DNA of 64,000 nucleotides from Chryseobacterium sp. KLBC 52 (GTDB taxonomy: Bacteria; Bacteroidota; Bacteroidia; Flavobacteriales; Weeksellaceae). Of the stretch, positions 1,572-34,265 are shown piece by piece. Made by a program: the position numbers and the translations under genes. The DNA lies in NCBI RefSeq assembly GCF_003347605.1, contig NZ_QDFZ01000009.1:1-64000 (forward strand). Direction: 5' to 3'. The notes beneath the pieces are model-generated. The model made no database searches and was not told where the DNA came from. It saw only the letters and a list, made by a program, of their open reading frames with translations. The stretch's first letter is position 1, and each line of letters starts with the position of its first letter.

Positions 1572-1656
1572 TTGAGTTATGTTATTATATGATAAAAGCA
1601 ATAGATGCACAGCGTGCAAATATTGCTATTTTATTTATCTTTTGATTGTCAATTGA

Positions 1657-2265: not shown

Positions 2266-2331
2266 CTTTTTATGTTTAGTTGTTATTTATTTTTTGCAAA
2301 AAAGTGAATCTTCTCTGCTTCAAATTTCGTT

Positions 2332-3279: not shown

Positions 3280-3295
3280 CTTAGTATGCTATAAA

Positions 3296-4471: not shown

Positions 4472-4473
4472 AA

Positions 4474-15495: not shown

Positions 15496-15519
15496 AGTAT
15501 ATAGTATATTGTTTAATTT

Positions 15520-15605
15520 CTAGCCCCGATTGCAACGGCATCCTTTTTCTAAAGGGCTTGAAGAAAGCTTTGGCGAAAAAGATAAAGTGGAAAGCGGGAT
15601 TAAGC
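15520..15605. repeat. REP-like palindromic element (TAGCCCCGATTGCAACGG type)
   Basis: The stretch running from TAGCCCCGATTGCAACGGCA to GGAAAGCGGGATTAAGCTCC has imperfectly inverted ends and resembles a palindromic repeat that I recall as common in flavobacterial genomes. It lies between Ro60 and the next gene and may act as a transcript end. Confidence 0.5.
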
Positions 15606-15652: not shown

Positions 15653-17170
15653 TTACAGCACTACTTTTTGAATCATTTTCACTGCAGATTTTTTGTCTTC
15701 CAAAGCATTCAATACATCGAAAATTTTGTCTGACCAACCTGCAATAAGGTGTACATCATCCTTTCTGATATCAAGCGGCTGCGTACCATAACCTGCAAGG
15801 TCAAAAATATACAGCTTTGCATGAGGTGCGATGGCTTTGTATTTTTTCCACACGTCTTCAAAGGAGTTTCTGTTTCCTGTGCTATCCCACATCTGAGTAT
15901 CGGTGAACAGCATTACTTTATCTACCTGCTCTCTTCTTTTGATGAGATCTTCAATTACCAGGTAACCATTGGTGGAATATCCTACCTCACCTTCACGTTT
16001 GTAGAATGCATCTACATTCCTTAAAATACCGTTTTTCGGCATGGGAACTCTCAGCCAACGGTCACCGAAGATACCTGTCACCACATTTTTACACTGTGAC
16101 TGGAGGATCATAGACATCAGCAAACCGATATCATACAGTAAAATTTTACTTTTGCGGGAAACTGCTTTCTGCATAGAACCCGACACGTCCGCTGCGATTA
16201 CCACTGAAGTATCAAAACCAAAGCCTTTGATATTTCTGGCACTTATCACAACAGCATATTCCAATGCTTCCAGTACTGAGGACAAATACGGAGAATCAAA
16301 GTTTTTTAATTCTCTGTAAGCCGCCAGGAATCGGAATGGGAGCTGTTTTGAATTGGTTACGGCTCTCTCATCGGAAAGATATCTGCACACTTTGTTCATC
16401 GCATCAGAAGATACTTTAGCTTCCAGAATATTCCTCAGGTTTCTCATGGTTGCCATATAGCCCAGTTTGTTGCTGAAGATCAATTCTTCCCATTTATTTT
16501 TGACAGCCAGTTTTCTTTCTGCATCATTTGCAAATTTCGTCTGACCCAAAACGGAAAGCTCCACTTCCCATGTATAAGGAGTTTCCAGGGTATTGTTAGC
16601 AATTTTGTTGAAAACTGCCTGCTGGTTGTCATCTTTAGCTTTCGGGTGAACCAGGAATAATGCATCTTTCAGCGTTACTTCTGATTTTCTGTTGTATTTG
16701 GCAAACTGGTATTCATCAAACTTATTGAATGATTTCACCAGACCTTTCTGAATCTGTTTGGACAGTTTGTTCAGTTTCTTGGTATCTGTTCTTTGATTGG
16801 CAAGCTGGTAGTAAGCCAATAATTCTGTGATTTCATCTGCTCTCTGAACGACTCCATCTACTGTTTTGCTTACAAGGTCTGTACCTGAAGTCTGCTTTGC
16901 CAATTCAGTTGTCAAAACCAATGGGATAGATCTCAGATACATATCTTTTCTTGCATATACGGCCAGCTTTGCCACAAATTCGGGATCATTTTTTTTGATC
17001 AGAGACTGGATTCTTCCTAATCTGTCATTTCCTTTTTCATAGTTGGCATCTGACAGTCCTGTTGTAACAACAGCACTATACAATTCTTCTGCAGGCGTCA
17101 TGGCATAAGCTTTTGCACCTTCGTAGTTCTGTACTACTTTATTTTCTTTTTTTAAAAAATTAAATTTCAT
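15653..17170 (-). CDS. Ro60-type RNA-binding protein (TROVE and vWA domains)
   Basis: A 505-residue bacterial Ro60/Rsr homologue. The N-terminal two-thirds is the helical-repeat TROVE ring (LGRIQSLIKKNDPEFVAKLA then VYARKDMYLRSIPLVLTTEL), which in characterised Ro proteins binds Y RNA on its outer surface and RNA 3' ends in its cavity. The C-terminus is a vWA domain with an intact MIDAS: VVIAADVSGSMQ and MLFTDTQMWDS. I chose ATG 17170 (MKFNFLKKENK) because the upstream frame overlaps the dyad operator and -7 box. Y RNA candidates lie downstream on the same strand, as expected for a Ro locus. Confidence 0.95.
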   Translation of the reverse strand: MKFNFLKKENKVVQNYEGAKAYAMTPAEELYSAVVTTGLSDANYEKGNDRLGRIQSLIKKNDPEFVAKLAVYARKDMYLRSIPLVLTTELAKQTSGTDLVSKTVDGVVQRADEITELLAYYQLANQRTDTKKLNKLSKQIQKGLVKSFNKFDEYQFAKYNRKSEVTLKDALFLVHPKAKDDNQQAVFNKIANNTLETPYTWEVELSVLGQTKFANDAERKLAVKNKWEELIFSNKLGYMATMRNLRNILEAKVSSDAMNKVCRYLSDERAVTNSKQLPFRFLAAYRELKNFDSPYLSSVLEALEYAVVISARNIKGFGFDTSVVIAADVSGSMQKAVSRKSKILLYDIGLLMSMILQSQCKNVVTGIFGDRWLRVPMPKNGILRNVDAFYKREGEVGYSTNGYLVIEDLIKRREQVDKVMLFTDTQMWDSTGNRNSFEDVWKKYKAIAPHAKLYIFDLAGYGTQPLDIRKDDVHLIAGWSDKIFDVLNALEDKKSAVKMIQKVVL

Positions 17171-17230
17171 GGTTACTGTTTTTATTGTTAAACATGGGAA
17201 GGATTGATACTTCCTCTCTGATTTCTGATG

Positions 17231-17237
17231 CAAAGTA
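17231..17237 (-). promoter_or_regulatory. -7 box of the Ro60 gene
   Basis: Minus-strand TACTTTG followed by CA, 10 bases downstream of the dyad at 17248-17266 and about 60 bases upstream of the chosen start codon. Confidence 0.6.
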
Positions 17238-17247
17238 AAAACAGTGT

Positions 17248-17266
17248 TGCGCAACCTTTTTGCGTA
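17248..17266 (-). promoter_or_regulatory. 19-bp dyad operator of the Ro60 gene
   Basis: Minus strand TACGCAA-AAAGG-TTGCGCA. Half-sites match six of seven positions as an inverted repeat. The same element precedes the Y RNA D/E unit and the promoter near 43.95 kb. Confidence 0.7.
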
Positions 17267-23292: not shown

Positions 23293-23718
23293 ATGATTAG
23301 CACGGAATTATTATTTTTAATCAACATCAATAAACTACAGTCTGTAATTACCAGAAAATTTGATTCTCTGAGTGTTCATGGACTGGGATTCAATGACTTT
23401 GTGATTCTTTATGTGCTTTATTCTTCCTCTGAGAGCAGAATGAGAAGAATAGATCTTGCTGAAAAAATAGGTCTGACCGCATCGGGAGTCACCCGTTTAT
23501 TGAATCCATTGGAAAAAATCGGGCTGGTAGCCAGAGAAACCAACGAAAGAGATGCCCGGGTAAGTTATGTGGTCATCACTCCTAATGGTAAAAAGATATT
23601 TGAAGAAGCTAGGCTAAGCGCTGAAAATAGTACTAAAGAAATCCTTTCATCCAAAAAAAATAAATCGCTGCGCATGGTCAATGAGTTTTTATTTGATTTA
23701 GGAGGAAATATACAATAA
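23293..23718 (+). CDS. MarR family transcriptional regulator
   Basis: A 141-residue winged-helix protein: the recognition region RIDLAEKIGLTASGVTRLLN then PLEKIGLVARE, followed by the wing NERDARVSYVVITPNGKKIF, is characteristic of MarR. It heads a four-gene plus-strand operon (GIY-YIG-like, DUF1330-like, alpha/beta hydrolase) and probably autoregulates it. The ligand is unknown. Confidence 0.92.
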   Translation: MISTELLFLININKLQSVITRKFDSLSVHGLGFNDFVILYVLYSSSESRMRRIDLAEKIGLTASGVTRLLNPLEKIGLVARETNERDARVSYVVITPNGKKIFEEARLSAENSTKEILSSKKNKSLRMVNEFLFDLGGNIQ

Positions 23719-23725
23719 TGAAAAG

Positions 23726-24064
23726 ATGAAAAATGCGTTAAAGAAACAGCTAAGAGAAAAGGCAAAAGACCATACAACAACAATGGGAGTACTTGCTGTT
23801 ACCAACACTTTAAACGGGAAAAAATACGTTCAGGCTTCTTTAAACCTGGAAGCACTGGTGAACAAGATGAAATTTCTTTTAAACGGAGGATTATTTACCC
23901 ATTCACAATTACAAAAGGAGTGGACTGAGTTGGGAAGTGATTCTTTTACTTTTGAGTTTGCAGTCGTTGTTCCTGATCAGAACAATGAATTTATCAACTA
24001 TCGTAAAGAGATTCAAAAGGCTGAACAGTTTTATATTTCCGGACTAACTACAGAATTGTATTAA
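23726..24064 (+). CDS. GIY-YIG nuclease family-like protein
   Basis: A 112-residue protein with a degenerate GIY-YIG core: MGVLAVTNTLNGKKYVQASL replaces the usual GxYxIxNxxNGKxYVGxS, so the second catalytic Tyr is kept in KKYVQAS while the first motif reads GVL. Catalysis is therefore doubtful. It starts 7 bases after marR. Short proteins of this type are commonly seen beside MarR-like regulators in flavobacteria; their role is not known to me. Confidence 0.7.
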   Translation: MKNALKKQLREKAKDHTTTMGVLAVTNTLNGKKYVQASLNLEALVNKMKFLLNGGLFTHSQLQKEWTELGSDSFTFEFAVVVPDQNNEFINYRKEIQKAEQFYISGLTTELY

Positions 24065-25456: not shown

Positions 25457-26008
25457 TTAATAATTCTTAAGACACCAATGCAGAATCTTTGCAATGTTTT
25501 TGGCGTCATCTACACCTCTGTGGTGGGTACCTTCTAAAGTCATACCCAATTCTCCCAAAGCTCTGTTCATTCCTACACTTTTCCTGATCGTAGGATGAAT
25601 TTCACCAAATAATGTCTTCACATTGATGTGGTCATCGCTCATGGGATAATCTGTGTAGAATCTTCTTGCCTGGTTTTGAAGCATATTCAGATCGTAGTTT
25701 CCGTAGCTCGCCCAAGTCAGTTCTTCCGAATCATATTCTGCTCTCAGGATATCGAAAGCATCATCCAGCATAATGCCTTCATGATCCAGCATATTTTGGG
25801 TAATAGTAGTCAACTCTGTACAGAACGAACTTACTTTTGAATACTGGGGTTTTACTAAAATTCCTTCATTTTTAGAGATCTTACCTGTTTTTGCATTCAT
25901 AATGCATACCCCGATTTCAATGATTTCGCTTTCCTGACCTCTTGGCGGGCGGTTTTCCCAACACGTTGCTTCGAGGTCTACTATTAATATATTGTCTGTT
26001 GTTTTCAC
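25457..26008 (-). CDS. 3'-5' exonuclease, ERI1/KapD-like DEDDh
   Basis: A 183-residue DEDDh exonuclease. ExoI is LIVDLEATCWE (Asp, Glu), ExoII SYGNYDLNML with its Asp, and ExoIII HHRGVDDAKNIAKI with catalytic His and Asp. The ATCWE variant and the FCTELTTITQNML stretch are typical of the ERI1/KapD branch, whose members trim structured RNA 3' ends. It is the last gene of the RNA-repair operon and a diverged paralogue of the next gene upstream. Confidence 0.9.
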   Translation of the reverse strand: MKTTDNILIVDLEATCWENRPPRGQESEIIEIGVCIMNAKTGKISKNEGILVKPQYSKVSSFCTELTTITQNMLDHEGIMLDDAFDILRAEYDSEELTWASYGNYDLNMLQNQARRFYTDYPMSDDHINVKTLFGEIHPTIRKSVGMNRALGELGMTLEGTHHRGVDDAKNIAKILHWCLKNY

Positions 26009-26117
26009 TTGTTTTAAATTTAATTGTTAAAGCATGGATGATGTGGGATTGAAGAAGTTTTTATAACGTCTCATTTACTTCCAGCCTCCAGCATCAATCT
26101 TCCAGCCTATTGATTAT

Positions 26118-26660
26118 TTACAGAATCTTACTTAAAATTCTGGCTGTATTATAAGCATCGTCTGCTCCGCTGTGATGGGTGCCTTCAAAATCCATATTCA
26201 AATAATGTAAAGCTCTTTTAAGCCCTATTTGTTTATGCAATTTGAAATGTCTTTTAAATTCATGCATCACATTCATATAGTTTTCTGAAAAAGGATTGGT
26301 TATCCCGAGCCAGTCACATTGTTCTATGATCTGCTCTCCGTCGAAGTTTCCATATCCTGCCCAGGTAAGCGGTGCGGAATGGTATTGATCTCTGATTAAT
26401 TCACAGGCTTCTTCGAAATAAATTCCTTTTTCTTCTATCAGTTGTGGCGTAATTCCGGTCAATTGTGTACAGAATCTGTTGATTTCTGAACGTTCCGGAA
26501 TAACATAAATGCATTGTTTCTGGGAAATTGCCTTTGATGTTAAGTTTAATTTGCAAATTCCTATTTCTATAATATCGACCTGTTGCCCAATGGGAATTCT
26601 GTCGTTTTCCCAGCATGTGGCTTCCAGATCGATGATGATCATCTCATTGGTTGTTTTCAT
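26118..26660 (-). CDS. 3'-5' exonuclease, ERI1/KapD-like paralogue
   Basis: A 180-residue DEDDh exonuclease with ExoI IIDLEATCWENDRIP, ExoII GYGNFDGEQII and ExoIII HHSGADDAYNTARI. All catalytic positions are kept. It is clearly related to the neighbouring exonuclease at 25457-26008, suggesting an old duplication with division of substrates. RNA end trimming is inferred from the ERI1 family and from the operon context with an RNA ligase. Confidence 0.9.
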   Translation of the reverse strand: MKTTNEMIIIDLEATCWENDRIPIGQQVDIIEIGICKLNLTSKAISQKQCIYVIPERSEINRFCTQLTGITPQLIEEKGIYFEEACELIRDQYHSAPLTWAGYGNFDGEQIIEQCDWLGITNPFSENYMNVMHEFKRHFKLHKQIGLKRALHYLNMDFEGTHHSGADDAYNTARILSKIL

Positions 26661-26740
26661 GATTTTTTTAGAATTAGAAGCTAGAGGTTAGTTCGGTTTA
26701 TACTTCTCATATCCTCAAGCTTCATTTTCATCGTTAATTG

Positions 26741-27304
26741 TTAATTTCTGGGAGCAAATGGAGGCGTCCATTTTTTCCTCTTCATTATTTCTTTGACTTC
26801 CTCGTAGGAAACCGGATAAAAATTGTGGCAGTCTACTCCAACATCAAAACTCAGTGCCATCTCATCATCCGGCAAGGTTCCGTGTGAATGGCCGTATAAT
26901 TGCCAGACCCCGCGATGTGAGCCATTCCATGTACGCATGGCGTAATGGAAAAGAATGATTTTCTGTTTGCCATTACTTTGATCCGGTTCATCAATTCTCA
27001 GTTCATGGTAATCTCTGATGGAAGCAAATCGTTTGGGATACGTTAAAGCAGCTCCTTCATGATTACCTTTGATCAGATGAATATTGCCATGTAACTGGTC
27101 TAAAATCTCCTTTGTAAAATCCGGTTTTCCTAAACTCATGTCTCCTAAATGGTATACCGTATCACCGGGCTCAACTTTCTCGTTCCATCTTTTAATGAGC
27201 TCTTCATTCATATAGTCCAGAGATTCAAAAGGCCGCTCTGAAAATTTTATAATATTCTCATGACCAAAATGATGGTCTGCTGTAAAAAATATATTGGGTT
27301 TCAT
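26741..27304 (-). CDS. Calcineurin-like metallophosphoesterase
   Basis: A 187-residue phosphoesterase with all metal motifs: FFTADHHFGHENII, YHLGDMSLGK, IKGNHEG, LFHYAMRTWNGSHRG and YGHSHGT. Small enzymes of this type accompany RNA and DNA ligases in several phages and repair islands, where they can remove 2',3'-cyclic or terminal phosphates. Which bond it cuts here is not shown by sequence. It lies between the ligase and the exonucleases on the same strand. Confidence 0.9.
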   Translation of the reverse strand: MKPNIFFTADHHFGHENIIKFSERPFESLDYMNEELIKRWNEKVEPGDTVYHLGDMSLGKPDFTKEILDQLHGNIHLIKGNHEGAALTYPKRFASIRDYHELRIDEPDQSNGKQKIILFHYAMRTWNGSHRGVWQLYGHSHGTLPDDEMALSFDVGVDCHNFYPVSYEEVKEIMKRKKWTPPFAPRN

Positions 27305-27321
27305 TTTTTTAATTTTTTTTT

Positions 27322-27378
27322 AAACCACCCCATCAAAAATTCTTTGAATTTTCGCCAACCCTCCAAAGGATGGGAATT
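27322..27378. repeat. 55-bp dispersed repeat, copy 1
   Basis: AAACCACCCCATCAAAAATT through CTCCAAAGGATGGGAAT recurs almost identically at 45538-45596. It contains the palindrome AAAATTC-TTT-GAATTTT. Two near-identical copies in one window suggest a small mobile or MITE-like element. Confidence 0.7.
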
Positions 27379-27490
27379 GTCACACTTTCAGTAGTTCTAT
27401 TTCTCTTAAATACAATGAAGTGTTTTCGTTATTCTGACTTTGATGGTTACTTGTTATACATAAAAAAGTTTCGGTAAAAAATTACCGAAA

Positions 27491-28507
27491 CTATACTTTG
27501 AGCGTCATTAACTCTTCTTTTATAAAATCAATGACTAGAGAATTCAACTTTTTGTTGATCCTTTTCTGCTCTTCTTTTTCAATAGCTGCAAAAGCTGCCG
27601 GGAAGTCTTTCTGGAAATCCTCTAAAATATCCTGTGAAAAAAGACCAATGACCTTACCTATCATTTTAGGTTCAAATTCACCGATTTTGCTTACCACATT
27701 ATTCAATCTGTTGGCTGTAGCATATTTTTGGATTTCTTCCCAGATCTCCTGCGCTTTTTCGCTGAAGTGAATCTGTTTTTGAACAGTTTTACCCTCTTTT
27801 TTAACCATTTTGGACTTTTCGACCCATTTTTCATTCTTATTTTTCAGAATAATTCTGGCACCGTTACCAAAATATCTGGTTTTCAAAGTTTTTACGATGG
27901 TACCTTCACACCTATTGTCTTCCAATTCAGGTAATCCAAGCCAAACCGGAATTTTTGAATTGAAAACATTAGGGAATTTCAAAGCTTCCTCAAGAGTTCC
28001 CTGAAACAAAATTTTTGCATAGAAAAATCCTGTCTCTTCAAAAATCTGATTGACCACTTCTGTATCCAAATAGGTAATTCCATTCAGTTTAATATCGAAA
28101 GCGTAAAATTCGTTGTAAGGTGCATATTCAATACCTTTCTGTACTTTCACAGCATCTTTTACGGGCTCTACTTCTTTATGTTTGTAACCACCACCGAACA
28201 ATTCACCGTAGATCACTACAGTTTCTACATCCGGGTAAATGGTTTTCACTTTTTGAAACACTTCTATTACATTTTTTCTGTAGCGTTCCAATATCTGATG
28301 GGCATTGAAAAATTTCTCATCTTTTTCGATAAAAGCAGTTCTCTTCGCGATTTTAATTTCCTTTCCGTCGGTAAAGAAAGAGAAATTAGCTCCGTGAACT
28401 TTTTCCTGTACGATGAAAACCTCATCCCCAAAACCCTGCATCCTGATCTGTTCGATCACGCGGGCCTGGTAAGCATTTTCTATAGCGTTATATGTTTTGA
28501 AAATCAT
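27491..28507 (-). CDS. RNA ligase, Rnl2-like nucleotidyltransferase
   Basis: A 338-residue ATP-dependent RNA ligase. Motif I is QEKVHGANFSF (nucleophile Lys near residue 35), followed by AKRTAFI. Motif III is VIYGELFGG, motif IIIa FYAFDIKL, motif IV EGTIVKTL and motif V ILKNKNEKWVEK, the order expected in Rnl2-type ligases. The C-terminal 100 residues are helical, as in editing or Rnl2 ligases. Rnl2 enzymes seal 3'-OH/5'-PO4 nicks in RNA duplexes or tRNA anticodon breaks. It sits in a six-gene RNA-processing operon right behind the tRNA array. Confidence 0.92.
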   Translation of the reverse strand: MIFKTYNAIENAYQARVIEQIRMQGFGDEVFIVQEKVHGANFSFFTDGKEIKIAKRTAFIEKDEKFFNAHQILERYRKNVIEVFQKVKTIYPDVETVVIYGELFGGGYKHKEVEPVKDAVKVQKGIEYAPYNEFYAFDIKLNGITYLDTEVVNQIFEETGFFYAKILFQGTLEEALKFPNVFNSKIPVWLGLPELEDNRCEGTIVKTLKTRYFGNGARIILKNKNEKWVEKSKMVKKEGKTVQKQIHFSEKAQEIWEEIQKYATANRLNNVVSKIGEFEPKMIGKVIGLFSQDILEDFQKDFPAAFAAIEKEEQKRINKKLNSLVIDFIKEELMTLKV

Positions 28508-28522
28508 TTTGTTTTAGTTTTT

Positions 28523-28894
28523 TTAATTGTTTCTAAAATTTTTTAAAAGGTTTAGAATATTTTCCTTTCCTACCGGATTCATGGAATGGCAATAGAATTC
28601 AGGAAGGCCCAGATCATTGTCCATGCAATATTCTATCAGCCATTTGGCACAGTCATATCCTGTTTTTTCAACAAATTCCTGAGAATCCTGTTTCAGATAG
28701 TGTTCATCCGCCAGATCATGGTCAAAAGAGATCATTTCCGGAAGTCCTTTTTCCAAAATCCTGTTGACAAACTGTTCGTAATTCCGAGCAATGTGCCAGT
28801 CGCTTCTGAGGAAAATATCCTGTTTTGTATAATGATAAGCCTCAATCGGGTATCTTATATCATCCAGAAATAGTAATCTTTTTGTTTTTTCCAT
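28523..28894 (-). CDS. cREC-type receiver-like protein (cyclic-phosphate processing)
   Basis: A 123-residue receiver-fold protein with the paired acids LFLDDIRYP and a second acidic strand ISFDHDLADEHY, but no response-regulator output domain or typical lysine motif. This matches the cREC family that comparative genomics placed in RNA-repair neighbourhoods and predicted to act on cyclic phosphate ends. It lies 15 bases upstream of the RNA ligase gene, which supports that reading. Enzymatic activity is unproven. Confidence 0.8.
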   Translation of the reverse strand: MEKTKRLLFLDDIRYPIEAYHYTKQDIFLRSDWHIARNYEQFVNRILEKGLPEMISFDHDLADEHYLKQDSQEFVEKTGYDCAKWLIEYCMDNDLGLPEFYCHSMNPVGKENILNLLKNFRNN

Positions 28895-28944
28895 GAGTTA
28901 ATTTTTATAATTTTTAAGCTTCCTGCATCTTGCTTCCAGCTTTA

Positions 28945-29430
28945 TTACACCATCATATCAGCACAGTTGGAACTGGCGAAAGCGTAAGGCTTTGCTTTAA
29001 ACACATATCCCATTCCCAGAATATATCCCATAGCATCTTTCAGTGCAACATTGGATTTAAAATCCGGGTCGGTATTAATGTCTGCGTGTACCTCCATTTC
29101 CACACCATAAGCATCCAACACAGAGCAGATTGCGTATGCAATTTCAACAGATTTGTTGACTTCATTCAGCATTCGCTCCTTGATACTGATACTCTGTATT
29201 TCTCTTTCTTTTCTGATAAAGGTAAACGCTCCTTTTCCCTCACGAATAAATACTACTGCCGTAGCATAGTTGATGGCATCTCCGTATACATGGGAGTCTG
29301 ATCCCACACATACTTTCAGACGGTGTCCGTTGGCCTGTTCGCGGAGGATGGCTTCTTCTACCAGCTGTGTGATAGAGTGTTGGAAAATTTTCCCATTCAT
29401 ATTCTGCCATGTTTGTTGTTGCGTTTCCAT
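28945..29430 (-). CDS. RNase H-like YkuK/DUF458 family protein
   Basis: A 161-residue protein of the YkuK/DUF458 RNase H-like family: VCVGSDSHVYGDAINYATAV with a leading acidic position, then VEMEVHADINTDPDFKSN and GMGYVFKAKPYAFASSNCAD. I chose ATG 29430 (METQQQTWQNMNGKIF), because the frame further upstream runs through the tRNA-Trp gene. It is the first protein gene downstream of the tRNA array. A role in RNA or RNA-DNA processing is plausible from the fold only. Confidence 0.85.
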   Translation of the reverse strand: METQQQTWQNMNGKIFQHSITQLVEEAILREQANGHRLKVCVGSDSHVYGDAINYATAVVFIREGKGAFTFIRKEREIQSISIKERMLNEVNKSVEIAYAICSVLDAYGVEMEVHADINTDPDFKSNVALKDAMGYILGMGYVFKAKPYAFASSNCADMMV

Positions 29431-29461
29431 TTTTTCTACATGTTTTAAATTTATAAATGAT

Positions 29462-29486
29462 TGTTGATAATTGATAAATGATAACT
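29462..29486. repeat. TGATAA repeat run
   Basis: Short TTGATAATTGATAAATGATA run in the gap between the RNase H-like gene and tRNA-Trp, like the one at 9270-9316. Confidence 0.5.
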
Positions 29487-29508
29487 GTCTATTGGTTGCC
29501 ATTTTGAG

Positions 29509-29579
29509 CACTCCGAACCGGACTCGAACCGATACCATCAGTTTTGGAGACTGAGATGCTGCCATTACACCATCAGAGT
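29509..29579 (-). tRNA. tRNA-Trp (CCA anticodon), divergent
   Basis: Acceptor ACTCTGA/TCGGAGT pairs fully; anticodon arm TCAGT-CTCCAAA-ACTGA; T-arm with TTCGAGT. The D-arm (TGGTGTAATGGCAGCA) is of the short Gln/Glu-like kind, not the usual bacterial Trp type. CCA is not encoded. Promoter-distal member of the array. Confidence 0.85.
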
Positions 29580-29586
29580 AAATGCT

Positions 29587-29660
29587 GTTGATTCATTAGG
29601 ACTCGAACCTAAACTCCAAGAATCAAAATCTTGTGTGCTGCCAATTACACTATGAATCAA
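29587..29660 (-). tRNA. tRNA-Gln (TTG anticodon)
   Basis: Acceptor TTGATTC/GAATCAA is perfect; anticodon arm CAAGA-TTTTGAT-TCTTG; T-arm TTAGG-TTCGAGT-CCTAA. The body resembles its neighbour tRNA-Trp in the D-arm, suggesting array members were derived from one another. Confidence 0.88.
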
Positions 29661-29756
29661 TTTCATGAGCAATAAGTAATTGGTAATGAGTAATATCAGA
29701 AATCAGTCGGGTATCAATGATTGTTCATTGCTTATTACTTATCATTCATGTTTTTG

Positions 29757-29829
29757 TGGAACAGACAGGAATTGAACCTGTACCTTTAGTTTTTCAGACT
29801 AACGTGCAGACCTTCTACACCACTCTTCC
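29757..29829 (-). tRNA. tRNA-Phe (GAA anticodon)
   Basis: Acceptor GGAAGAG/CTGTTCC has one G-G mismatch at pair 5. Anticodon arm TTAGT-CTGAAAA-ACTAA; T-arm ACAGG-TTCAATT-CCTGT. The acceptor is followed by ACA rather than ACCA. Confidence 0.82.
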
Positions 29830-29917
29830 GGATTTTATAAGTAATGAGTAATTGGTAATGAGTAATTTTCACACTACAACATTACTTATTGCTCATTGCT
29901 TATCATTTATATTTTGG

Positions 29918-29990
29918 TACGGGAAGAGGGATTCGAACCCCCAAAAGCTTGATCCTAAATCAAGAGTGTCTACCATTCCACCATTCCCGC
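29918..29990 (-). tRNA. tRNA-Leu-like (TAG anticodon), short variable loop
   Basis: Acceptor GCGGGAA/TTCCCGT; anticodon arm CTTGA-TTTAGGA-TCAAG; T-loop TTCGAAT. Only about 5 bases lie between anticodon and T stems, whereas Leu tRNAs normally have a long class II arm. Followed by ACCA. The 3' CCA and the anticodon are clear; charging by LeuRS is doubtful. Confidence 0.8.
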
Positions 29991-30081
29991 AGGTTTTTTA
30001 TAAGTAATGAGTAATTGGTAATGAGTAATATTTTCTATTTTCATTATTACTCATTGCTCATTACTTATTACTCATATTATG

Positions 30082-30155
30082 TACCTCTCCCCAGATTCGA
30101 ACTGGGACTTTACGGGGTTTAAAGCCGTTTTCTCTGCCAATTGGAATAGAGAGGC
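30082..30155 (-). tRNA. tRNA-Leu-like (TAA anticodon probable)
   Basis: Acceptor GCCTCTC/GAGAGGT pairs (one G-T). With a 5-base variable loop AAAGT before T-stem CCCAG, the anticodon stem is ACGGC/CCCGT with a C-C mismatch at the top and the loop is TTTAAAC, giving anticodon TAA. The D-arm is weak. It lacks a class II arm, so as a Leu tRNA it is abnormal. Confidence 0.7.
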
Positions 30156-30294
30156 GTAATTTATTAGTAATGAGTAATCGGTAATGAGTAATTTGAAAAT
30201 CTATGGTTATTACTTATTGCTCATTGCTTATTACTTATTGCTCATTGCTTATTACTTATTGCTCATTGTTTATTACTTATGTCATGCTAGGTTT

Positions 30295-30369
30295 GAGAAA
30301 GCTCTGTCTGTTGATAAACTATGCCTGTTAGTGTTTGTAAAGATCTTCTGCGCTTGACAAACCTTTCTC
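30295..30369 (-). ncRNA. Array stem-loop RNA R1 (GCGCAGAAGATC family)
   Basis: Minus strand: GAGAAAGGTTTGTC pairs with GACAGAGCTTTCTC (14 bp, one mismatch). Immediately inside the 5' strand is the conserved core AAGCGCAGAAGATCTTTA. The largest loop of the five copies. Confidence 0.7.
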
Positions 30370-30400
30370 GTTTCCTAATTGTATTTTGTTTTAAAAAAGT

Positions 30401-30454
30401 AAAAGGCTGTCTGTTTTTATTGACTAAAGATCTTCTGCGCTCGACAGTCCTTTT
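30401..30454 (-). ncRNA. Array stem-loop RNA R2
   Basis: Minus strand: AAAAGG-A-CTGTC pairs with GACAG-CCTTTT (11 bp, 1-base bulge), then core GAGCGCAGAAGATCTTTA. Stem bases differ from R1, R3, R4 and R5 but still pair. Confidence 0.75.
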
Positions 30455-30564
30455 TTCTCTTTTCTTCATTTTTTGTGTGAATGGTAACTGGCCAATTTTT
30501 TAAAAAAATCTGAACTTTCATGGTATTATTATCAATTCAATATTGACCAGCTATTCACATCCAG

Positions 30565-30636
30565 TACTCTATAAGGGAATCGAACCCTTGTTTTCTGCTC
30601 GAAAGGCAGGCGTCCTCACCATTAGACGAATAGAGC
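30565..30636 (-). tRNA. tRNA-Glu (TTC anticodon), copy 1
   Basis: Acceptor GCTCTAT/ATAGAGT; D-arm GTCTAATGGTGAGGAC is Glu-like; anticodon loop CTTTCGA with four of five stem pairs; T-arm AAGGG-TTCGATT-CCCTT. Promoter-proximal to R2. Confidence 0.85.
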
Positions 30637-30641
30637 GTTAA

Positions 30642-30712
30642 TCCACAAACCAGGAATCGAACCTGGACAACAAGAGTACATTTCCTGCATGCTGCCATTA
30701 CATTATCTGTGG
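30642..30712 (-). tRNA. Degenerate tRNA (TGT anticodon by position, Thr?)
   Basis: Acceptor CCACAGA/TTTGTGG and T-arm CCAGG-TTCGATT-CCTGG are sound. The anticodon arm CAGGA-AATGTAC-TCTTG puts A at position 33, where U is nearly universal, so decoding is unlikely. Positions 34-36 read TGT. Confidence 0.65.
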
Positions 30713-30716
30713 TTGG

Positions 30717-30800
30717 TGGAAGTAGTAGGATTCGAACCTACTCAGCAATGAAGCAACAGATTTACAGTCTGCCCCGACTCTCCAACCTCGGCGTACTTCC
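30717..30800 (-). tRNA. tRNA-Tyr (GTA anticodon), class II
   Basis: Acceptor GGAAGTA/TACTTCC is perfect, followed by ACCA. Anticodon loop CTGTAAA; long variable arm with GC-TTCATT-GC; T-arm GTAGG-TTCGAAT-CCTAC. The best preserved tRNA of the array. Confidence 0.93.
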
Positions 30801-30848
30801 GGATTTTTATGAGTAATTAATAAGTAATTCCTCATTTTTCCTTTTAAA

Positions 30849-30913
30849 AAGAAAAGGTCTGTCTTTATTGAATGTTTGATTAAAGATCTTCTGCGCTCGA
30901 CAGCCTTTTTCTT
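30849..30913 (-). ncRNA. Array stem-loop RNA R3
   Basis: Minus strand: AAGAAAAAGG-CTGTC pairs with GACAG-A-CCTTTTCTT, then core GAGCGCAGAAGATCTTTA. Lies between the Tyr and Cys tRNAs. Confidence 0.75.
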
Positions 30914-30996
30914 TTATTAATAAAGGATATTCTTTGCTATAGATGATAAAAGATCATTGATAAAAGATTCTTATATTTCCTATAGTTTCTACTTTG

Positions 30997-31078
30997 AGAT
31001 GGCTATGGGATTCAAACCCACTCAGTTTACACAACGGTTTTGCAGACCGCCCCGACTCTTCCACTTCGGCGAACCATC
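30997..31078 (-). tRNA. tRNA-Cys-like (GCA anticodon) on a Tyr-type class II body
   Basis: Acceptor GATGGTT/AGCCATC; anticodon arm GCGGT-CTGCAAA-ACCGT; T-loop TTTGAAT. The 5' half (GCCGAAGTGGAAGAGTCGGG) and the long variable arm match the neighbouring tRNA-Tyr, whereas normal Cys tRNAs are class I. It looks like a Tyr gene re-purposed by anticodon change. Confidence 0.82.
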
Positions 31079-31085
31079 AGATTAA

Positions 31086-31147
31086 AAAATAAAGTCTGTC
31101 TTCATTTGTTTGATATAAGAACTTCTGCGCTTGACAAACTTTATTTT
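31086..31147 (-). ncRNA. Array stem-loop RNA R4
   Basis: Minus strand: AAAATAAAGTTTGTC pairs with GACAGACTTTATTTT over 15 bp (one G-T), then core AAGCGCAGAAGTTCTTA. The stem is entirely different from R2 and R3 outside the GTC/GAC end. Confidence 0.78.
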
Positions 31148-31189
31148 ACCTAAAAATTTATAAATGATATTCCTACTTTTAATTCATCC

Positions 31190-31269
31190 GGAGAGAAGAA
31201 AAGCCTGTCTCTATTTTTCGTGTTTGGCGTAAAGATCTTCTGCTCTCGACAAACTTTTGCTTTTTCTCC
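31190..31269 (-). ncRNA. Array stem-loop RNA R5
   Basis: Minus strand: AAAAGTTTGTC pairs with GACAGGCTTTT (two G-T), flanked by GGAGA/TCTCC pairing; core GAGAGCAGAAGATCTTTA. Lies between the Cys and Asn tRNAs. Confidence 0.72.
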
Positions 31270-31295
31270 TGAAACAATTAACAATTAGTTACCTG

Positions 31296-31367
31296 CGATT
31301 CTGGAAAGACTCGAACTTTCAACTTCCGGTTTAACAGACCGGTGCTCTGCCATTGAGCTACAAAATC
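31296..31367 (-). tRNA. tRNA-Asn (GTT anticodon)
   Basis: Acceptor GATTTTG/CAGAATC; D-arm GCTC-AATGGCA-GAGC; anticodon arm CCGGT-CTGTTAA-ACCGG; T-arm GAAAG-TTCGAGT-CTTTC. Discriminator G. Confidence 0.92.
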
Positions 31368-31371
31368 ATTG

Positions 31372-31445
31372 TAATTCCGGAAGGACTCGAACCTTCAACC
31401 TTCGGTGTATCAGACCGACACTCTAACCACTTGAGCTACGAAATC
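31372..31445 (-). tRNA. tRNA-Ile (GAT anticodon)
   Basis: Acceptor GATTTCG/CGGAATT; anticodon arm TCGGT-CTGATAC-ACCGA; T-arm GAAGG-TTCGAGT-CCTTC; followed by ACA. Body closely similar to the Arg(ACG) and Lys members. Confidence 0.92.
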
Positions 31446-31450
31446 ATTTG

Positions 31451-31522
31451 TATTCCATAAGGGGATCGAACCCTTGTCGTCCGGTAGAAAGCCGGATGCA
31501 CTTGCCACTATGCTAATGGAAC
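31451..31522 (-). tRNA. tRNA-Glu-like (TTC anticodon), copy 2
   Basis: Acceptor GTTCCAT/ATGGAAT; anticodon arm TCCGG-CTTTCTA-CCGGA; T-arm CAAGG-GTTCGATC-CCCTT region intact. Position 37 is T, which is rare. Different body from copy 1, so not a recent duplicate. Confidence 0.78.
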
Positions 31523-31528
31523 CAATTG

Positions 31529-31600
31529 TCTGGAAAGCAAGATTCGAACTTGCGACCTCCCGCGTCCAAGACGGGTAAACAACCACCGTTATCTTTCCAG
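31529..31600 (-). tRNA. tRNA-Pro (TGG anticodon)
   Basis: Acceptor CTGGAAA/TTTCCAG is perfect; anticodon arm CCCGT-CTTGGAC-GCGGG; T-arm GCAAG-TTCGAAT-CTTGC; followed by ACA. Confidence 0.9.
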
Positions 31601-31606
31601 CTTTGG

Positions 31607-31662
31607 GGTTCACTTCTGTTTCTTTTCCGGGAGACAGCCGGATGGGAAATTTTCCATGAACC
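31607..31662 (-). tRNA. Armless mini tRNA-like RNA (GTC anticodon, Asp-type)
   Basis: Minus strand of 56 bases: acceptor GGTTCA/TGAACC, a tiny GGAAA/TTTCC arm, then an anticodon arm TCCGG-CTGTCTC-CCGGA with a loop very like tRNA-Asp. There is no T-arm and no TTCGA. It fits exactly in register between tRNA-Pro and tRNA-Arg, with the same 6-7 base spacing as its neighbours. Confidence 0.6.
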
Positions 31663-31668
31663 TTTTTG

Positions 31669-31742
31669 TGATTCCGAGAGGACTCGAACCTCTAACCCTG
31701 GGTTTAGAAAACCCATGCTCTGTCCAGTTGAGCTACGGAACC
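31669..31742 (-). tRNA. tRNA-Arg (TCT anticodon)
   Basis: Acceptor GGTTCCG/CGGAATC; D-arm GCTC-AACTGGACA-GAGC; anticodon arm TGGGT-TTTCTAA-ACCCA; T-arm AGAGG-TTCGAGT-CCTCT; followed by ACA. Confidence 0.92.
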
Positions 31743-31749
31743 GTTTTTG

Positions 31750-31823
31750 TAACCCCAGAAAGATTTGAACTTTCAACCCCCGGTTTAAAAGACCGGTGCT
31801 CTAACCATTTGAGCTATGAGATT
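31750..31823 (-). tRNA. tRNA-Lys (TTT anticodon)
   Basis: Acceptor AATCTCA/TGGGGTT with two G-T pairs; anticodon arm CCGGT-CTTTTAA-ACCGG; T-loop TTCAAAT; followed by ACA. Confidence 0.9.
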
Positions 31824-31833
31824 GTTTTGGTTT

Positions 31834-31884
31834 TGTGAATCATCAATAATCAATTTGCTTGACTTGCTAATTTTAAAATTCACA
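31834..31884 (-). ncRNA. Second armless tRNA-like stem-loop
   Basis: Minus strand of 51 bases: TGTGAAT/ATTCACA 7-bp closing stem, and an internal arm AATTAGC-AAGTCAA-GCAAATT (6 of 7 pairs) whose 7-base loop centres on GTC. No D- or T-arm. It lies between the Lys and Arg tRNAs, in array register. Weaker than the Asp-type mini-tRNA. Confidence 0.4.
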
Positions 31885-31891
31885 TTCTTTG

Positions 31892-31965
31892 TAATCTCAG
31901 AAGGACTCGAACCTTCAACCTTCGGTGTCGTAAACCGACGCTCTATCCAATTGAGCCATGAGATT
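31892..31965 (-). tRNA. tRNA-Arg (ACG anticodon)
   Basis: Acceptor AATCTCA/TGAGATT is perfect; anticodon arm TCGGT-TTACGAC-ACCGA; T-arm GAAGG-TTCGAGT-CCTTC; followed by ACA. Confidence 0.92.
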
Positions 31966-31974
31966 TTCTCCTTT

Positions 31975-32047
31975 GGGTATCTCCGGGGATCGAACCCTGT
32001 TCTCCGGTTCCACAGACCGGCGCTTTACCAAATAAGCTAAAGAAACC
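31975..32047 (-). tRNA. tRNA-His-like (GTG anticodon)
   Basis: Acceptor GGTTTCT/AGATACC with one T-T mismatch; anticodon arm CCGGT-CTGTGGA-ACCGG; T-stem has one A-G mismatch. The G(-1) that marks His tRNAs is not encoded, although the discriminator is C. First tRNA of the array, 3 bases after a terminator T-run. Confidence 0.82.
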
Positions 32048-32049
32048 AT

Positions 32050-32080
32050 AAAAAAAAGCGCCTCTTTTCGGGAGGCGCTT
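32050..32080 (-). terminator. Strong terminator at array entrance
   Basis: Minus strand AAGCGCCTC-(CCGAAAA)-GAGGCGCTT followed by seven T. It separates the 41-residue ORF upstream from tRNA-His, so either the array has its own promoter or readthrough is controlled here. Confidence 0.8.
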
Positions 32081-32104
32081 CATCTATTTAAACGTAAGAG
32101 ATCA

Positions 32105-32230
32105 TTAAATGACCCACGTATATAAGCACCTTTTATCCACAATTCCACTTTCAAGAATACACGCAACACCTGTCGGCTCCTGTCCGAATAGTCTTGAATA
32201 TTGATTGAATATGTTGTGTAACTGTTTCAT
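32105..32230 (-). CDS. 41-residue ORF upstream of the tRNA array
   Basis: Protein beginning MKQLHNIFNQYSRLFGQEPT and ending CLYTWVI. It has its own promoter (32300-32332) and a strong terminator 25 bases after the stop, which argues that it is a real small gene or a leader. No family recognised. A frame extended to 32290 overlaps the promoter-proximal leader and is less likely. Confidence 0.5.
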   Translation of the reverse strand: MKQLHNIFNQYSRLFGQEPTGVACILESGIVDKRCLYTWVI

Positions 32231-32299
32231 TTTATTTTTGTTTGTTTCTAAATTATTTTTAATTGAATCCTGAAAACCTGTTGCTTTCAATTTTCGGTT

Positions 32300-32332
32300 G
32301 CAAAGTAAATATGAATTTTTCGAATCTGCAAA
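32300..32332 (-). promoter_or_regulatory. Promoter before the 41-residue ORF and array
   Basis: Minus strand TTTG (329-332), 20-base spacer, then TTACTTTGC (300-308). It is the nearest promoter-like sequence upstream of the tRNA array. Confidence 0.6.
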
Positions 32333-32560
32333 TAAATTTTCGAATTAAAACATTGAAAATCAATTAATTACGCATTAAATTTAGAATAGAGAATTTCTGT
32401 CCGCAATATTTTGCAGATATCTTAATTACCTAAATGACTGTCTCTCACCGGGTTGCTTATCACTCTATTTTATCGTATTAAAGTTTCATTGTTGATTAAA
32501 AATTTTTCATGTTTATGGTTATTTTTTTTCATTCTAAATAATTTCTGACCTAAAAAACAA

Positions 32561-32587
32561 AAAACGCCTCGGTTTTCCGAGGCGTTT
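32561..32587 (-). terminator. Terminator after the 42-residue ORF
   Basis: AAACGCCTCGG-TTTT-CCGAGGCGTTT is an 11-bp perfect stem; on the minus strand it is followed by TGTTTTTTAGG. Confidence 0.75.
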
Positions 32588-32617
32588 CTGTTGTATTTTG
32601 ATTAATTTTTTACAGGT

Positions 32618-32746
32618 TTATAGTAAATAATTTCCAAAGTCAGCACATTTCGCCTCATTCCATATCACCTCATCATATCCGAATAATCCTTTATTAGAAG
32701 GACTTTTGAATAGTTCTGCATTGATATGTGCTCTTTGTATTGTCAT
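32618..32746 (-). CDS. 42-residue ORF
   Basis: Protein starts MTIQRAHINAELFKSPSNKG and ends CADFGNYLL. A -7 box TATCTTTG lies 13 bases upstream of the ATG and a perfect terminator follows, so it is a self-contained small transcription unit. No similarity recognised. Its layout mirrors the 41-residue ORF next to the array. Confidence 0.55.
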   Translation of the reverse strand: MTIQRAHINAELFKSPSNKGLFGYDEVIWNEAKCADFGNYLL

Positions 32747-32758
32747 AATTTTCTGGTG

Positions 32759-32766
32759 CAAAGATA
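32759..32766 (-). promoter_or_regulatory. -7 box of the 42-residue ORF
   Basis: Minus-strand TATCTTTG followed by C; no good TTG at the usual distance. Confidence 0.5.
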
Positions 32767-32769
32767 AAT

Positions 32770-33236: not shown

Positions 33237-34265
33237 TTAATTCCTGAACATTTTATTTCTTCCTGTCTTAAATCTTGAAATATCTTTCAAAATCACTGCG
33301 TCATCAGGATTAAAAAATTTCAGTTCGTTTACAATTTCAGAATGGGTGTTTACTTTTTCTGCAATGATTTCGTAGGCTATTTTTCTGGTTGCTGCATGCA
33401 GCTTCGGATCTTTTTTAAATTCATATTTTATCGCTTCCAGAAAAGTAATCTTTTTATAGGCTGGAGTGTTTTCATATAAATTCAGAATTTCAGATTCTAA
33501 TTTTTTAATGTCAAAGATATTGGCAAAGTAGTTATTCAAACAATTGAAAGCATCTTTATCTTCTTCCCATCCTTTCATTAGAACCTTCTGAGCATCTTTT
33601 GGCTGCTCCATTTTTTTACGGTACACCAAAGAAGCTTTTACCATCTGGTTGTTTTTCACATAATCGTCCGCTACTATCTGATAATAATAATGGGCATTTT
33701 TAAGATCGTTGATTTCTTTATAAAGATCTCCTACCTTTTCTTTCTGTTCCATTTCTTTGTAAAGGTCAATGGCTTTCTTATGTTGTTTTGCTTTTTCATA
33801 GCAGGCTGCAGCATCGGATTTATTATTGAGTTTTTTAAGGTATACAACTGCTGCTTCATTGTAGAATCCCCCATTTTCCAGGGTCTTTGCTCCTCTGTAG
33901 TTGTCATGCAGAAGATTCATATAGACTCTCGCTGCTTTTTTATAGTCTTTTTCGGCAATGTATTTTTCGGCAAGTTCTTCATATTTGCTCCGGATCCTGT
34001 CGAAAAGTGAATTTTCCAGATAAAAACTGCTGCTTCCCCGGCCTTTTTTTCCGGCTGAATTTCTGTCGTTTTGTTCTTTGTCTTTTAAAGAAGTAATCAC
34101 AAGGAGAATGATAAAAGCCACAATTAAGAAAACTCCTAATGTTCCGATAACACTCCAGAAACTTTCATGGAATAACTGGGCTACAATTCCGACAATCTTA
34201 AACATGGCCAACAGCACGAATGCCGCCATGAATTTGTCTATAAATTTCTGTTTATTCATCATCAT
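33237..34265 (-). CDS. bpX-system membrane/TPR protein
   Basis: A 342-residue protein with two N-terminal hydrophobic helices (AAFVLLAMFKIVGIVAQLF; VIGTLGVFLIVAFIILLVIT), a short basic linker, then TPR-like helical repeats (AARVYMNLLHDNYRGAKTLE then NGGFYNEAAVVYLKK). It is the last gene of the MoxR-vWA-propeller operon and overlaps the preceding gene by 14 bases. I place it among the bpX accessory components by context; no individual family is certain. Confidence 0.75.
   Translation of the reverse strand: MMMNKQKFIDKFMAAFVLLAMFKIVGIVAQLFHESFWSVIGTLGVFLIVAFIILLVITSLKDKEQNDRNSAGKKGRGSSSFYLENSLFDRIRSKYEELAEKYIAEKDYKKAARVYMNLLHDNYRGAKTLENGGFYNEAAVVYLKKLNNKSDAAACYEKAKQHKKAIDLYKEMEQKEKVGDLYKEINDLKNAHYYYQIVADDYVKNNQMVKASLVYRKKMEQPKDAQKVLMKGWEEDKDAFNCLNNYFANIFDIKKLESEILNLYENTPAYKKITFLEAIKYEFKKDPKLHAATRKIAYEIIAEKVNTHSEIVNELKFFNPDDAVILKDISRFKTGRNKMFRN

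Follow-up and report, generated by a model that had tools for sequence, protein, structure and literature searches.

A tRNA array joined to RNA-repair genes in Chryseobacterium is preceded by two predicted attenuators with leaders of nearly complete amino-acid diversity

Organization of the locus

We analysed the first 64,000 nucleotides of contig NZ_QDFZ01000009.1 of Chryseobacterium sp. KLBC 52 (assembly GCF_003347605.1), hereafter called the window, which harbours a large tRNA array, six genes for RNA-processing and RNA-repair proteins directly downstream of it and, upstream, a control region of two tandem units, each made of a short leader open reading frame (ORF) and a terminator (Table 1). 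An initial, sequence-only reading had described 17 tRNA or tRNA-like genes on one strand ahead of six genes for RNase H-like, cREC, Rnl2-type ligase, metallophosphoesterase and two exonuclease proteins, and both the layout and the six identities were borne out by ARAGORN, ORF calls and profile matches. ARAGORN called 17 tRNA genes, all on the minus strand, and the six ORFs follow on the same strand, the first of them (RNase H-like) starting 77 nt after the end of the last tRNA. The two mini-tRNAs of that reading could not be confirmed as such; a hairpin element occurs five times in the spacers that are not tRNA. The interval it delimited covers the array and the genes and, because it ends at position 32047, leaves out the control region, at approximately 32050-32768. 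In a whole-window Rfam scan, 15 of the 17 array tRNAs pass the gathering score; in two further scans tRNA-Cys reaches 35 bits for a cut-off of 29, and tRNA-Tyr is listed only under the tRNA-Sec model, below the cut-off of that model. The whole 4.86-Mb genome has 81 tRNA matches, one of them partial, about one fifth of which are in the window array.

The ligase scores above the TIGR02307 cut-off, harbours the C-terminal domain PF18043 and the motif I lysine, and is thus an Rnl2-family member; its EKVHG motif aligns with EKIHG of T4 RNA ligase 2, and it matches structure 2hvq with an E value of 8.5e-33. It is 98% identical to the ligase of Chryseobacterium indologenes AA5. No match to the RtcB ligase, the RtcA cyclase or the RtcR activator was found among the six operon proteins. 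A second Rnl2 paralog (roughly 33-39% identity) is coded at a different site in about two dozen genomes of the genus (e.g. G048:C9, G094:C1).

The RNase H-like protein belongs to the YkuK/DUF458 family (PF04308), which has been placed beside RNase H1, in an RNase H1-like clade (PMC3985635). The catalytic acids are kept, with D45, E90 and D117 invariant in 39 aligned sequences, and a link to a tRNA array, present here, is not mentioned in the available part of that paper. The AlphaFold2 model has a mean predicted local distance difference test score of 91; a structure search with it gave weak matches only, led by one to an RNase H1-type domain (E 0.0096), and no PDB sequence matched the profile.

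Table 1. Features of the array locus and of its surroundings in the window
Feature	Position	Strand	Details
Leader-1 -7 promoter box, TATCTTTG	32755..32768	-	TAnnTTTG upstream of ATG
Leader ORF 1, MTIQRAHINAELFKSPSNKGLFGYDEVIWNEAKCADFGNYLL	32618..32746	-	42 codons, all 20 amino acids
Predicted antiterminator strand 1, TGAGGCG	32651..32657	-	codons 30-32 of leader 1; pairs with terminator-1 5' arm CGCCTCG
Predicted intrinsic terminator 1	32559..32589	-	13 pairs, then T-run
Possible second promoter, weak (TTTG ... TACTTTG)	32301..32332	-	read by eye
Leader ORF 2, MKQLHNIFNQYSRLFGQEPTGVACILESGIVDKRCLYTWVI	32105..32230	-	41 codons, all 20 amino acids
Predicted antiterminator strand 2, AGGTGCTT	32124..32131	-	K-R-C-L codons of leader 2; pairs with AAGCGCCT of terminator 2
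Predicted intrinsic terminator 2	32050..32081	-	directly ahead of first tRNA
tRNA array	29508..32047	-	His, Arg(ACG), Lys, Arg(UCU), Pro, Glu, Ile, Asn, Cys, Tyr, Thr-like, Glu, Leu(UAA), Leu(UAG), Phe, Gln, Trp
tRNA-like RNA called Thr(UGU)	30642..30712	-	no U33; variable discriminator across relatives
Array hairpin copy 1	31196..31261	-	covariance model R1, 75.7 bits
Array hairpin copy 2	31087..31146	-	R1, 66.8 bits
Array hairpin copy 3	30850..30912	-	R1, 71.0 bits
Array hairpin copy 4	30398..30456	-	R1, 64.9 bits
Array hairpin copy 5	30295..30369	-	R1, 59.4 bits
RNase H-like protein (YkuK/DUF458 family)	28945..29430	-	PF04308, E 4.8e-31
cREC cyclic-phosphate-processing receiver-like protein	28523..28894	-	PF20274 (cREC_REC), E 2.6e-22
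Rnl2-family RNA ligase	27491..28507	-	TIGR02307, 201.8 bits (cut-off 197.15)
Calcineurin-like phosphoesterase	26741..27304	-	phrog_547, E 2.3e-53; Pfam Metallophos models slightly below cut-offs
RNase_T/KapD-like 3'-5' exonuclease	26118..26660	-	PF00929, E 8.8e-14
RNase_T/KapD-like 3'-5' exonuclease	25457..26008	-	PF00929, E 1.8e-17
TROVE/Ro60 protein	15653..17254	-	PF05731, E 3.6e-28; linked, not adjacent to array
MoxR-vWA-beta-propeller ternary conflict system	33237-40157	-	bpX3 34252-35949, bpX0/bpX1 35939-38317, bpX2 38308-39051, bpMoxR 39024-40157

Two tandem leader-terminator units precede the array

Leader 1 is located about 500 nt further upstream than leader 2, and in both the antiterminator strand lies near codon 30. 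The stretches comprising terminator 1 (32550-32595) and terminator 2 (32048-32090) have predicted folding energies of -22.2 and -17.4 kcal/mol (z -6.1 and -5.2), and the in silico fold of antiterminator 1 has a z of -4.1. As judged from the sequence, each unit thus combines the short leader ORF, intrinsic terminator and competing antiterminator strand that define an attenuator. The motif TAnnTTTG, which we take to be the Bacteroidota -7 consensus, is present within 60 nt of the leader-1 ATG in 70 of 71 loci, compared with 22 of 390 control windows, and starts 20-21 nt before it in 66. An exact TTG-N18-24-TAnnTTTG signature occurs at -309 to -359 in 25 of 77 loci, the window not being among them.

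The anatomy of the control region, its conservation and the strand pairings can be read from the sequences. Of 78 loci, 71 yielded leader 1, 70 of them through similarity and one (L219) by manual choice; 41 of these leaders have 20 distinct residues, 27 have 19 and 3 have 18, and a terminator is found 24-34 nt past the stop codon in all 71. In the diverged versions, residues such as Trp have moved and the amino-acid set is kept. Among the loci without a recovered leader 1, L105, L187, L188 and L222 have an unrelated leader with 19 amino acids and L099 is at a contig end; the others are L211, from a distant family, and L226. Leader 2 was found in 66 of 77 loci, with 20 (26 loci), 19 (23), 18 (11) or 17 (6) distinct residues, and 64 of the 77, including that of Psychroserpens, have a terminator ahead of the first tRNA. 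The pairing between leader 2 and its terminator is matched by at most 10% of shuffled sequences in 61 of 64 loci (50 shuffles each). Locus L089 harbours a compensatory change in leader 1, TGAAGCG facing CGCTTCG, with the Glu codon respelled. Leaders of unrelated sequence keep a predicted pairing in the same codon region (codon 30 in L219 and L105, codon 27 in L187), with at most 4% of shuffles as good. Counting only codons ahead of the antiterminator strand, the two leaders together represent all 20 amino acids in 56 of 62 loci and lack a single one in the other 6.

Such diversity is uncommon in segments of this length. Among random 42-residue windows of the proteins coded in the window, 19 distinct residues are reached in 3.8% and 20 in 0.3% of cases, the former value being 5.6% for the RNase H-like protein and 1.1% for the ligase. 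The diversity of leader 1 (60 distinct sequences) was reached by none of 1000 global-pool and 1 of 1000 per-column substitution randomisations, and that of leader 2 by 7 of 1000 global-pool randomisations. In 800 kb of the genome outside the window, 25 of the 1306 ORFs of 36-46 codons encode at least 19 different residues; none has both a terminator and a -7 box, the sole hairpin-bearing candidate of the 25 having no -7 box. The window itself has 116 ORFs of that size, 8 of which reach at least 19 residues, and a terminator is present in addition only at the two leaders. When the search was extended to the window plus 107 loci, mostly array regions, 134 of the 135 ORFs that passed, nested starts counted, were array leaders.

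The array and the RNase H-like gene form the core of the locus

A match to the ligase was found in 101 of 148 genomes of the genus, counting one (G023) with only a 33% paralog, and a few of the copies are broken. We fetched 47 ligase loci from named contigs, 46 of Chryseobacterium or near relatives and 1 of Psychroserpens. All 47 have tRNAs upstream of the ligase gene on the same strand, from 2 (at a contig end) to 19 per locus. The sequence-only reading had proposed the co-occurrence of array and ligase genes in relatives as its check, and a lack of conserved linkage as what would speak against it; the linkage is conserved throughout this set. Gene order in the 46 loci is largely kept as array, RNase H-like protein, cREC, Rnl2, phosphoesterase and exonucleases, with some genes missing in places and optional insertions of ATP-grasp, DinB, RLIG1-like ligase, metallo-beta-lactamase-fold and nucleoside-hydrolase genes.

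The profile of the RNase H-like protein has matches in 39 of 395 genomes of the phylum and 104 of 246 genomes of the family, from which we collected 60 gene regions. All 20 regions of the genus that lack the ligase gene still have 3-17 tRNAs ahead of the RNase H-like gene. The same arrangement holds for 7 of the 9 regions that come from other genera in the family (2-11 tRNAs) and for both regions from a second family of the order (14 and 16 tRNAs). Among 29 regions from other families of the class, a close upstream tRNA group is present only at L211, and L205 has a single tRNA 4 kb from the gene. Thus, in this order the array and the RNase H-like gene constitute the core, and the repair genes come and go; the ligase was rejected as the core of the locus. 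The proposal of the sequence-only reading that a dedicated tRNA supply is coupled to RNA repair stands as an idea, with the amendment that the partner retained throughout the genus is the RNase H-like gene and not the ligase. Six genomes of the genus have no match to the RNase H-like protein, with 48-56 tRNA matches each.

Of note, L211 (G532:C5) corresponds to a second copy of the RNase H-like gene in its genome, with tRNAs Glu, Arg, Lys and Phe 1.2-1.4 kb upstream; the other copy (L202) has none.

Array tRNAs form a diverged set with altered anticodon loops

We compiled 630 array tRNAs from 47 loci, the window included and Psychroserpens left out. Their discriminator bases are mostly correct for the isotype, namely G for Asn (34/35), Trp (33/33), Asp (20/20) and Ser, U for Cys (44/44), C for His (40/41) and A for most others. 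Deviations to G where the housekeeping tRNA has A occur in Glu (9/75) and Phe (18/40). The window array tRNAs are 51-75% identical to tRNAs of the same isotype elsewhere in their own genome, and their best same-isotype matches in arrays of other genera reach 62-95%, with none there for Arg(UCU) and Thr. In all loci except L105, Leu(UAG) has a short variable arm (74-76 nt, 41/41 copies) and Cys a long one (83-85 nt, 44/44 copies), the reverse of the housekeeping genes.

For 15 of 19 isotypes the commonest anticodon loop of the arrays is not the housekeeping one, the exceptions being Lys, Asn, Trp and Met, and the changes are mostly at positions 32, 37 and 38. Eight of the 13 altered isotypes that can be compared with Flavobacteriaceae arrays have a changed loop in common with them (Arg-ACG, Glu, Ile, Tyr, Phe, Gln, Asp and Ser), as exemplified by Asp, with CTGTCTC in the arrays instead of CTGTCAC; the Cys tRNA of Flavobacteriaceae arrays has the housekeeping loop. 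Between the window genome and one Flavobacteriaceae genome, the housekeeping loops are the same for 16 of the 19 isotypes compared, the set from the latter being the best 30 tRNA places of that genome minus its array tRNAs. On these comparisons the tRNAs of the arrays represent a diverged lineage in which anticodon loops are altered.

The Thr-like RNA stands apart. It is represented by 25 copies called Thr(UGU) in the 47 loci and by 3 variants called Ile(UAU); any base can occupy the discriminator position, and the anticodon arm is nearly invariant, with GCAGGAAATGTACTCTTGT in most copies.

The array spacers contain a conserved hairpin element

The spacer hairpins are 59-75 nt long, with an outer stem of 10-14 bp and a loop starting with RAGMGCAGAAGWTCTTTA. 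The exact motif has 4 matches in the whole genome, all inside the array, and in loci L061-L107 all 119 strict copies lie within arrays, with none overlapping a tRNA; a dispersed genomic repeat was rejected on the location of these copies. Across the searched loci, 150 matches are on the array strand and none on the opposite one; one of these matches (L209, no array) was dropped from later counts. In an alignment of 53 copies, in which one mistrimmed copy (L085) was left, 90.7% of pair cells are standard and 43 cells carry two-sided changes, compared with 22.2 in shuffles; the signal is destroyed when the pairing partner is slid, and the number of pairs with two-sided changes (6) is not above shuffles.

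The covariance model R1 built for the element has matches in all 59 sampled genomes of the genus (among the matches listed, the weakest being G038 with E 0.004, and with places compared by eye), in all 20 genus loci devoid of the ligase gene and, with two copies each, in two sister-genus loci. No copy is present in L105, L187 or L188, L224 has only a weak match, and another weak one (27.2 bits) was found in L221, a locus without an array. Among the six genomes without the RNase H-like gene, four have no R1 match and two harbour short, weak palindromes only. An Rfam scan returned no family matching the hairpin. We regard it as a new, covarying and conserved RNA element of the arrays.

A proposed sensor of tRNA loss

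Taken together, these features make it probable that the locus is an inducible operon for backup tRNAs and RNA repair, under two tandem ribosome-mediated attenuators that jointly sample all 20 amino acids. For the wider reading, a universal sensor driving an immune-like response to tRNA destruction by means of a reserve set of nuclease-evading tRNAs, a hairpin RNA processed by the RNase H-like enzyme and resealing enzymes, we put the chances at about even.

During normal growth, ribosomes would finish leaders 1 and 2 and mask the antiterminator strands, so that transcription would end at terminator 1 or 2. If any tRNA were depleted, for instance after cleavage by an anticodon nuclease, a ribosome would stall early in a leader, leaving TGAGGCG (leader 1) or AGGTGCTT (leader 2) to pair with the 5' arm of the terminator, and the polymerase would enter the array and the genes. 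The array would then add tRNAs that can probably be charged and that, through their altered anticodon loops, may evade the nuclease, and cREC, the phosphoesterase, the exonucleases and Rnl2 would clean and reseal the cut tRNAs. For both phages and cells, cREC and ligase have been proposed to be linked in RNA repair (PMC7824862 and PMC9503650, available parts). The RNase H-like gene is the one protein gene that adjoins the array at all genus loci examined, and its product probably has the array transcript as its substrate, for processing or editing, perhaps at the repeated hairpins. The induction logic, the expression, the nuclease resistance and the roles of the enzymes are inferred from the gene content and sequences.

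Several observations weigh against this proposal. The loci are related, so the counts are not independent. In the window, Cys of leader 1 and Trp of leader 2 are located behind the antiterminator strand, and each leader alone thus samples 19 of 20 amino acids. The fold of antiterminator 2 is modestly above shuffles (z -2.1, 5/200 as good), no terminator was found after leader 2 in L187 and L188, and five pairings (both leaders in L220 and in L222, the second leader in L219) are no better than shuffles, 20-35% of which match them. The diversity of leader 2 does not exceed per-column randomisation (371/1000 reach it), and its 45-residue form (8 sequences) beats neither control (246 and 570 of 1000). 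No Ala, Gly or Val tRNA is present in any genus array, though the leaders contain codons for these amino acids; Gly or Val tRNAs do occur in Flavobacteriaceae arrays. For two of the 15 altered anticodon loops (Phe, Ser), the other family has an identical loop in its housekeeping tRNA. Finally, 47 of the 148 genus genomes have no ligase match, and repair is therefore not obligatory.

The leaders could also sense slow translation of any cause, such as amino-acid starvation or ribosome-binding drugs, with the array merely raising tRNA capacity. Uncharged tRNAs would trigger the same leaders, and translation-targeting antibiotics induce the trn array of Anabaena (PMC10272220, available part). However, extra tRNA would be useless when the amino acid itself is missing, the anticodon-loop changes would have no obvious use, and the ligase, cREC and phosphoesterase genes behind the array point to broken RNA. 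We therefore regard such a general stress or starvation switch as unlikely: tRNA breakage fits better than starvation because the released genes correspond to spare tRNAs and end-healing and end-sealing enzymes.

Less likely still is an array of decoys, in which the tRNAs would be bait that soaks up anticodon nucleases, with no need for a role in translation. The odd bodies of Leu(UAG) and Cys, the Thr-like RNA without U33 and the G discriminators of part of the Glu and Phe tRNAs are consistent with it, but the other discriminators match the isotype, which decoys would not need, and bait would be expected to keep the host anticodon loop, which most array tRNAs do not. A decoy or pseudogene array is thus not favoured as the principal interpretation, discriminators following the isotype and 8 of 13 altered loops recurring in a second family. 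The sequence-only reading had left the choice between decoys and replacements open; because most discriminators are isotype-correct, usable replacements are favoured and inert decoys are not.

Slightly less probable again is a Ro60/Y-RNA ribonucleoprotein locus, in which the tRNA-like RNA and the hairpins would be Y-RNA-like partners of the linked TROVE protein, and this protein would direct RNA quality control. A TROVE gene is present in 22 of 30 genus genomes with the array and the RNase H-like gene (in G017 at another site only) and in none of 6 without the latter, and in L186, L218 and L224 the ORF that follows the RNase H-like gene codes for TROVE. A parallel to the combination of array, TROVE and RNase H-like genes is found in Vibrio phage KVP40 (L261), where genes for a DUF2828/DUF7788 'RNA-binding' protein and then a PF04308 protein come after a tRNA array, all on one strand. 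However, the 8 of 30 genomes devoid of TROVE all have an R1 match, and no Rfam Y-RNA model matches at its cut-off, the best score for the bacterial Y RNA YrlA (RF02553) being 31.6 bits for the 69 needed, over tRNA genes and not the hairpin. The hairpin is thus not favoured as the Y RNA of the TROVE protein.

A domesticated or decaying phage tRNA island whose cargo has no present role is very improbable: the operon proteins have phage relatives and phage arrays with repair genes are common (PMC7824862, available part), but the control region and the hairpin are conserved, the RNase H-like proteins are 88-96% identical in an aligned six-genome sample of the genus, and no phage structural family was found among 16 window proteins (six of the operon and ten flanking) scanned against PHROGs. 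That scan gave weak homing-endonuclease and regulator-like matches at 23293-24064. A direct phage origin was set aside, as no tRNAs lie in the stretches fetched from 14 IMG/VR contigs that code for the RNase H-like protein, KVP40-type phages remaining a lead; the Rnl2 profile found one viral contig.

Relation to known systems

Ribosome-mediated attenuators govern amino-acid operons, as in the trp, his, leu, thr and pheS leaders, and the known leaders repeat codons of one or a few amino acids. The units described here resemble them in the short leader ORF, the intrinsic terminator and the mutually exclusive antiterminator strand. In contrast, they are arranged in tandem and are not rich in the codons of one regulated amino acid, each leader having 17-20 different amino acids with about one codon for each of the 20, and they precede tRNA and repair genes rather than biosynthesis operons. 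The RtcR-regulated rtcBA operon similarly unites RNA-repair genes, Ro60 and a tRNA-like RNA and is induced by tRNA damage, but there RtcR, with its CARF-like domain, controls RtcB and RtcA, whereas the ligase here is of the Rnl2 family and sensing apparently occurs by leader translation.

The trn operon of Anabaena is likewise a large array that stays silent during normal growth and is switched on under translational stress, and its repressor TrcR also binds the promoter of the RNA ligase gene rtcB; it differs in being plasmid-borne and repressed by a protein, with array and ligase at separate sites (PMC10272220, available part). Phage arrays with Rnl2 and cREC also join a tRNA supply to ligase, cREC and phosphoesterase genes, and changes in their anticodon loops, altered here too, have been argued to let phage tRNAs evade anticodon nucleases (PMC10264068 for the latter; see also PMC7824862 and PMC9503650). 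Unlike them, the present array is chromosomal and genus-wide, and leaders and an array hairpin are not mentioned for phages in the available parts of these papers.

The attenuation principle and the parts, tRNA array and Rnl2 repair, are of known kinds. Among the matches listed for the open-access literature, no title deals with a leader for all 20 amino acids or with a tRNA array joined to an Rnl2 operon in Bacteroidota, though an earlier mention of either is possible, and the array hairpin did not appear. Known leader peptides gauge one or few amino acids; a leader sampling the full pool, if confirmed, would be a general alarm for tRNA loss, which is the weapon of many toxins and anti-phage systems. 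The proposed sensor would explain why a bacterium keeps a second tRNA set, and it can be tested codon by codon. The analysis also adds a conserved RNA element and brings an uncharacterised RNase H-like family into tRNA biology.

Genomic surroundings

The array sits in a stress or conflict island: upstream of it is a MoxR-vWA-beta-propeller (bpX) system, and downstream are TROVE/Ro60 and Ter genes. The TROVE match listed in Table 1 is the only one in the genome. A Flavo-1 RNA (RF01705, 64.1 bits) is located just beyond the 3' end of that gene, on the opposite strand (15518-15605, plus strand). The Ter genes (528-5845, minus strand), related to tellurite and chemical stress, code for TerC, two TerD, TelA and PRTase proteins, and relatives are found near the array in several loci. 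An 898-residue DUF6493/DUF7824/DUF7825 protein is coded at 19473-22169 (minus strand), relatives of which also follow the array operon in L232, L234 and L236. A PADLOC scan of ten window proteins gave matches only for the two exonucleases, to a generic DEDDh model.

Locus L187 harbours two tRNA-like RNAs of 111 and 118 nt (G234:C2, 520639-520749 and 520822-520939, minus strand), in which a longer segment, its core common to both, takes the place of the anticodon arm. They could be Y-RNA-like, and they lie just upstream of the gene for a member of a protein family of approximately 594-613 residues that recurs in L105, L187 and L188.

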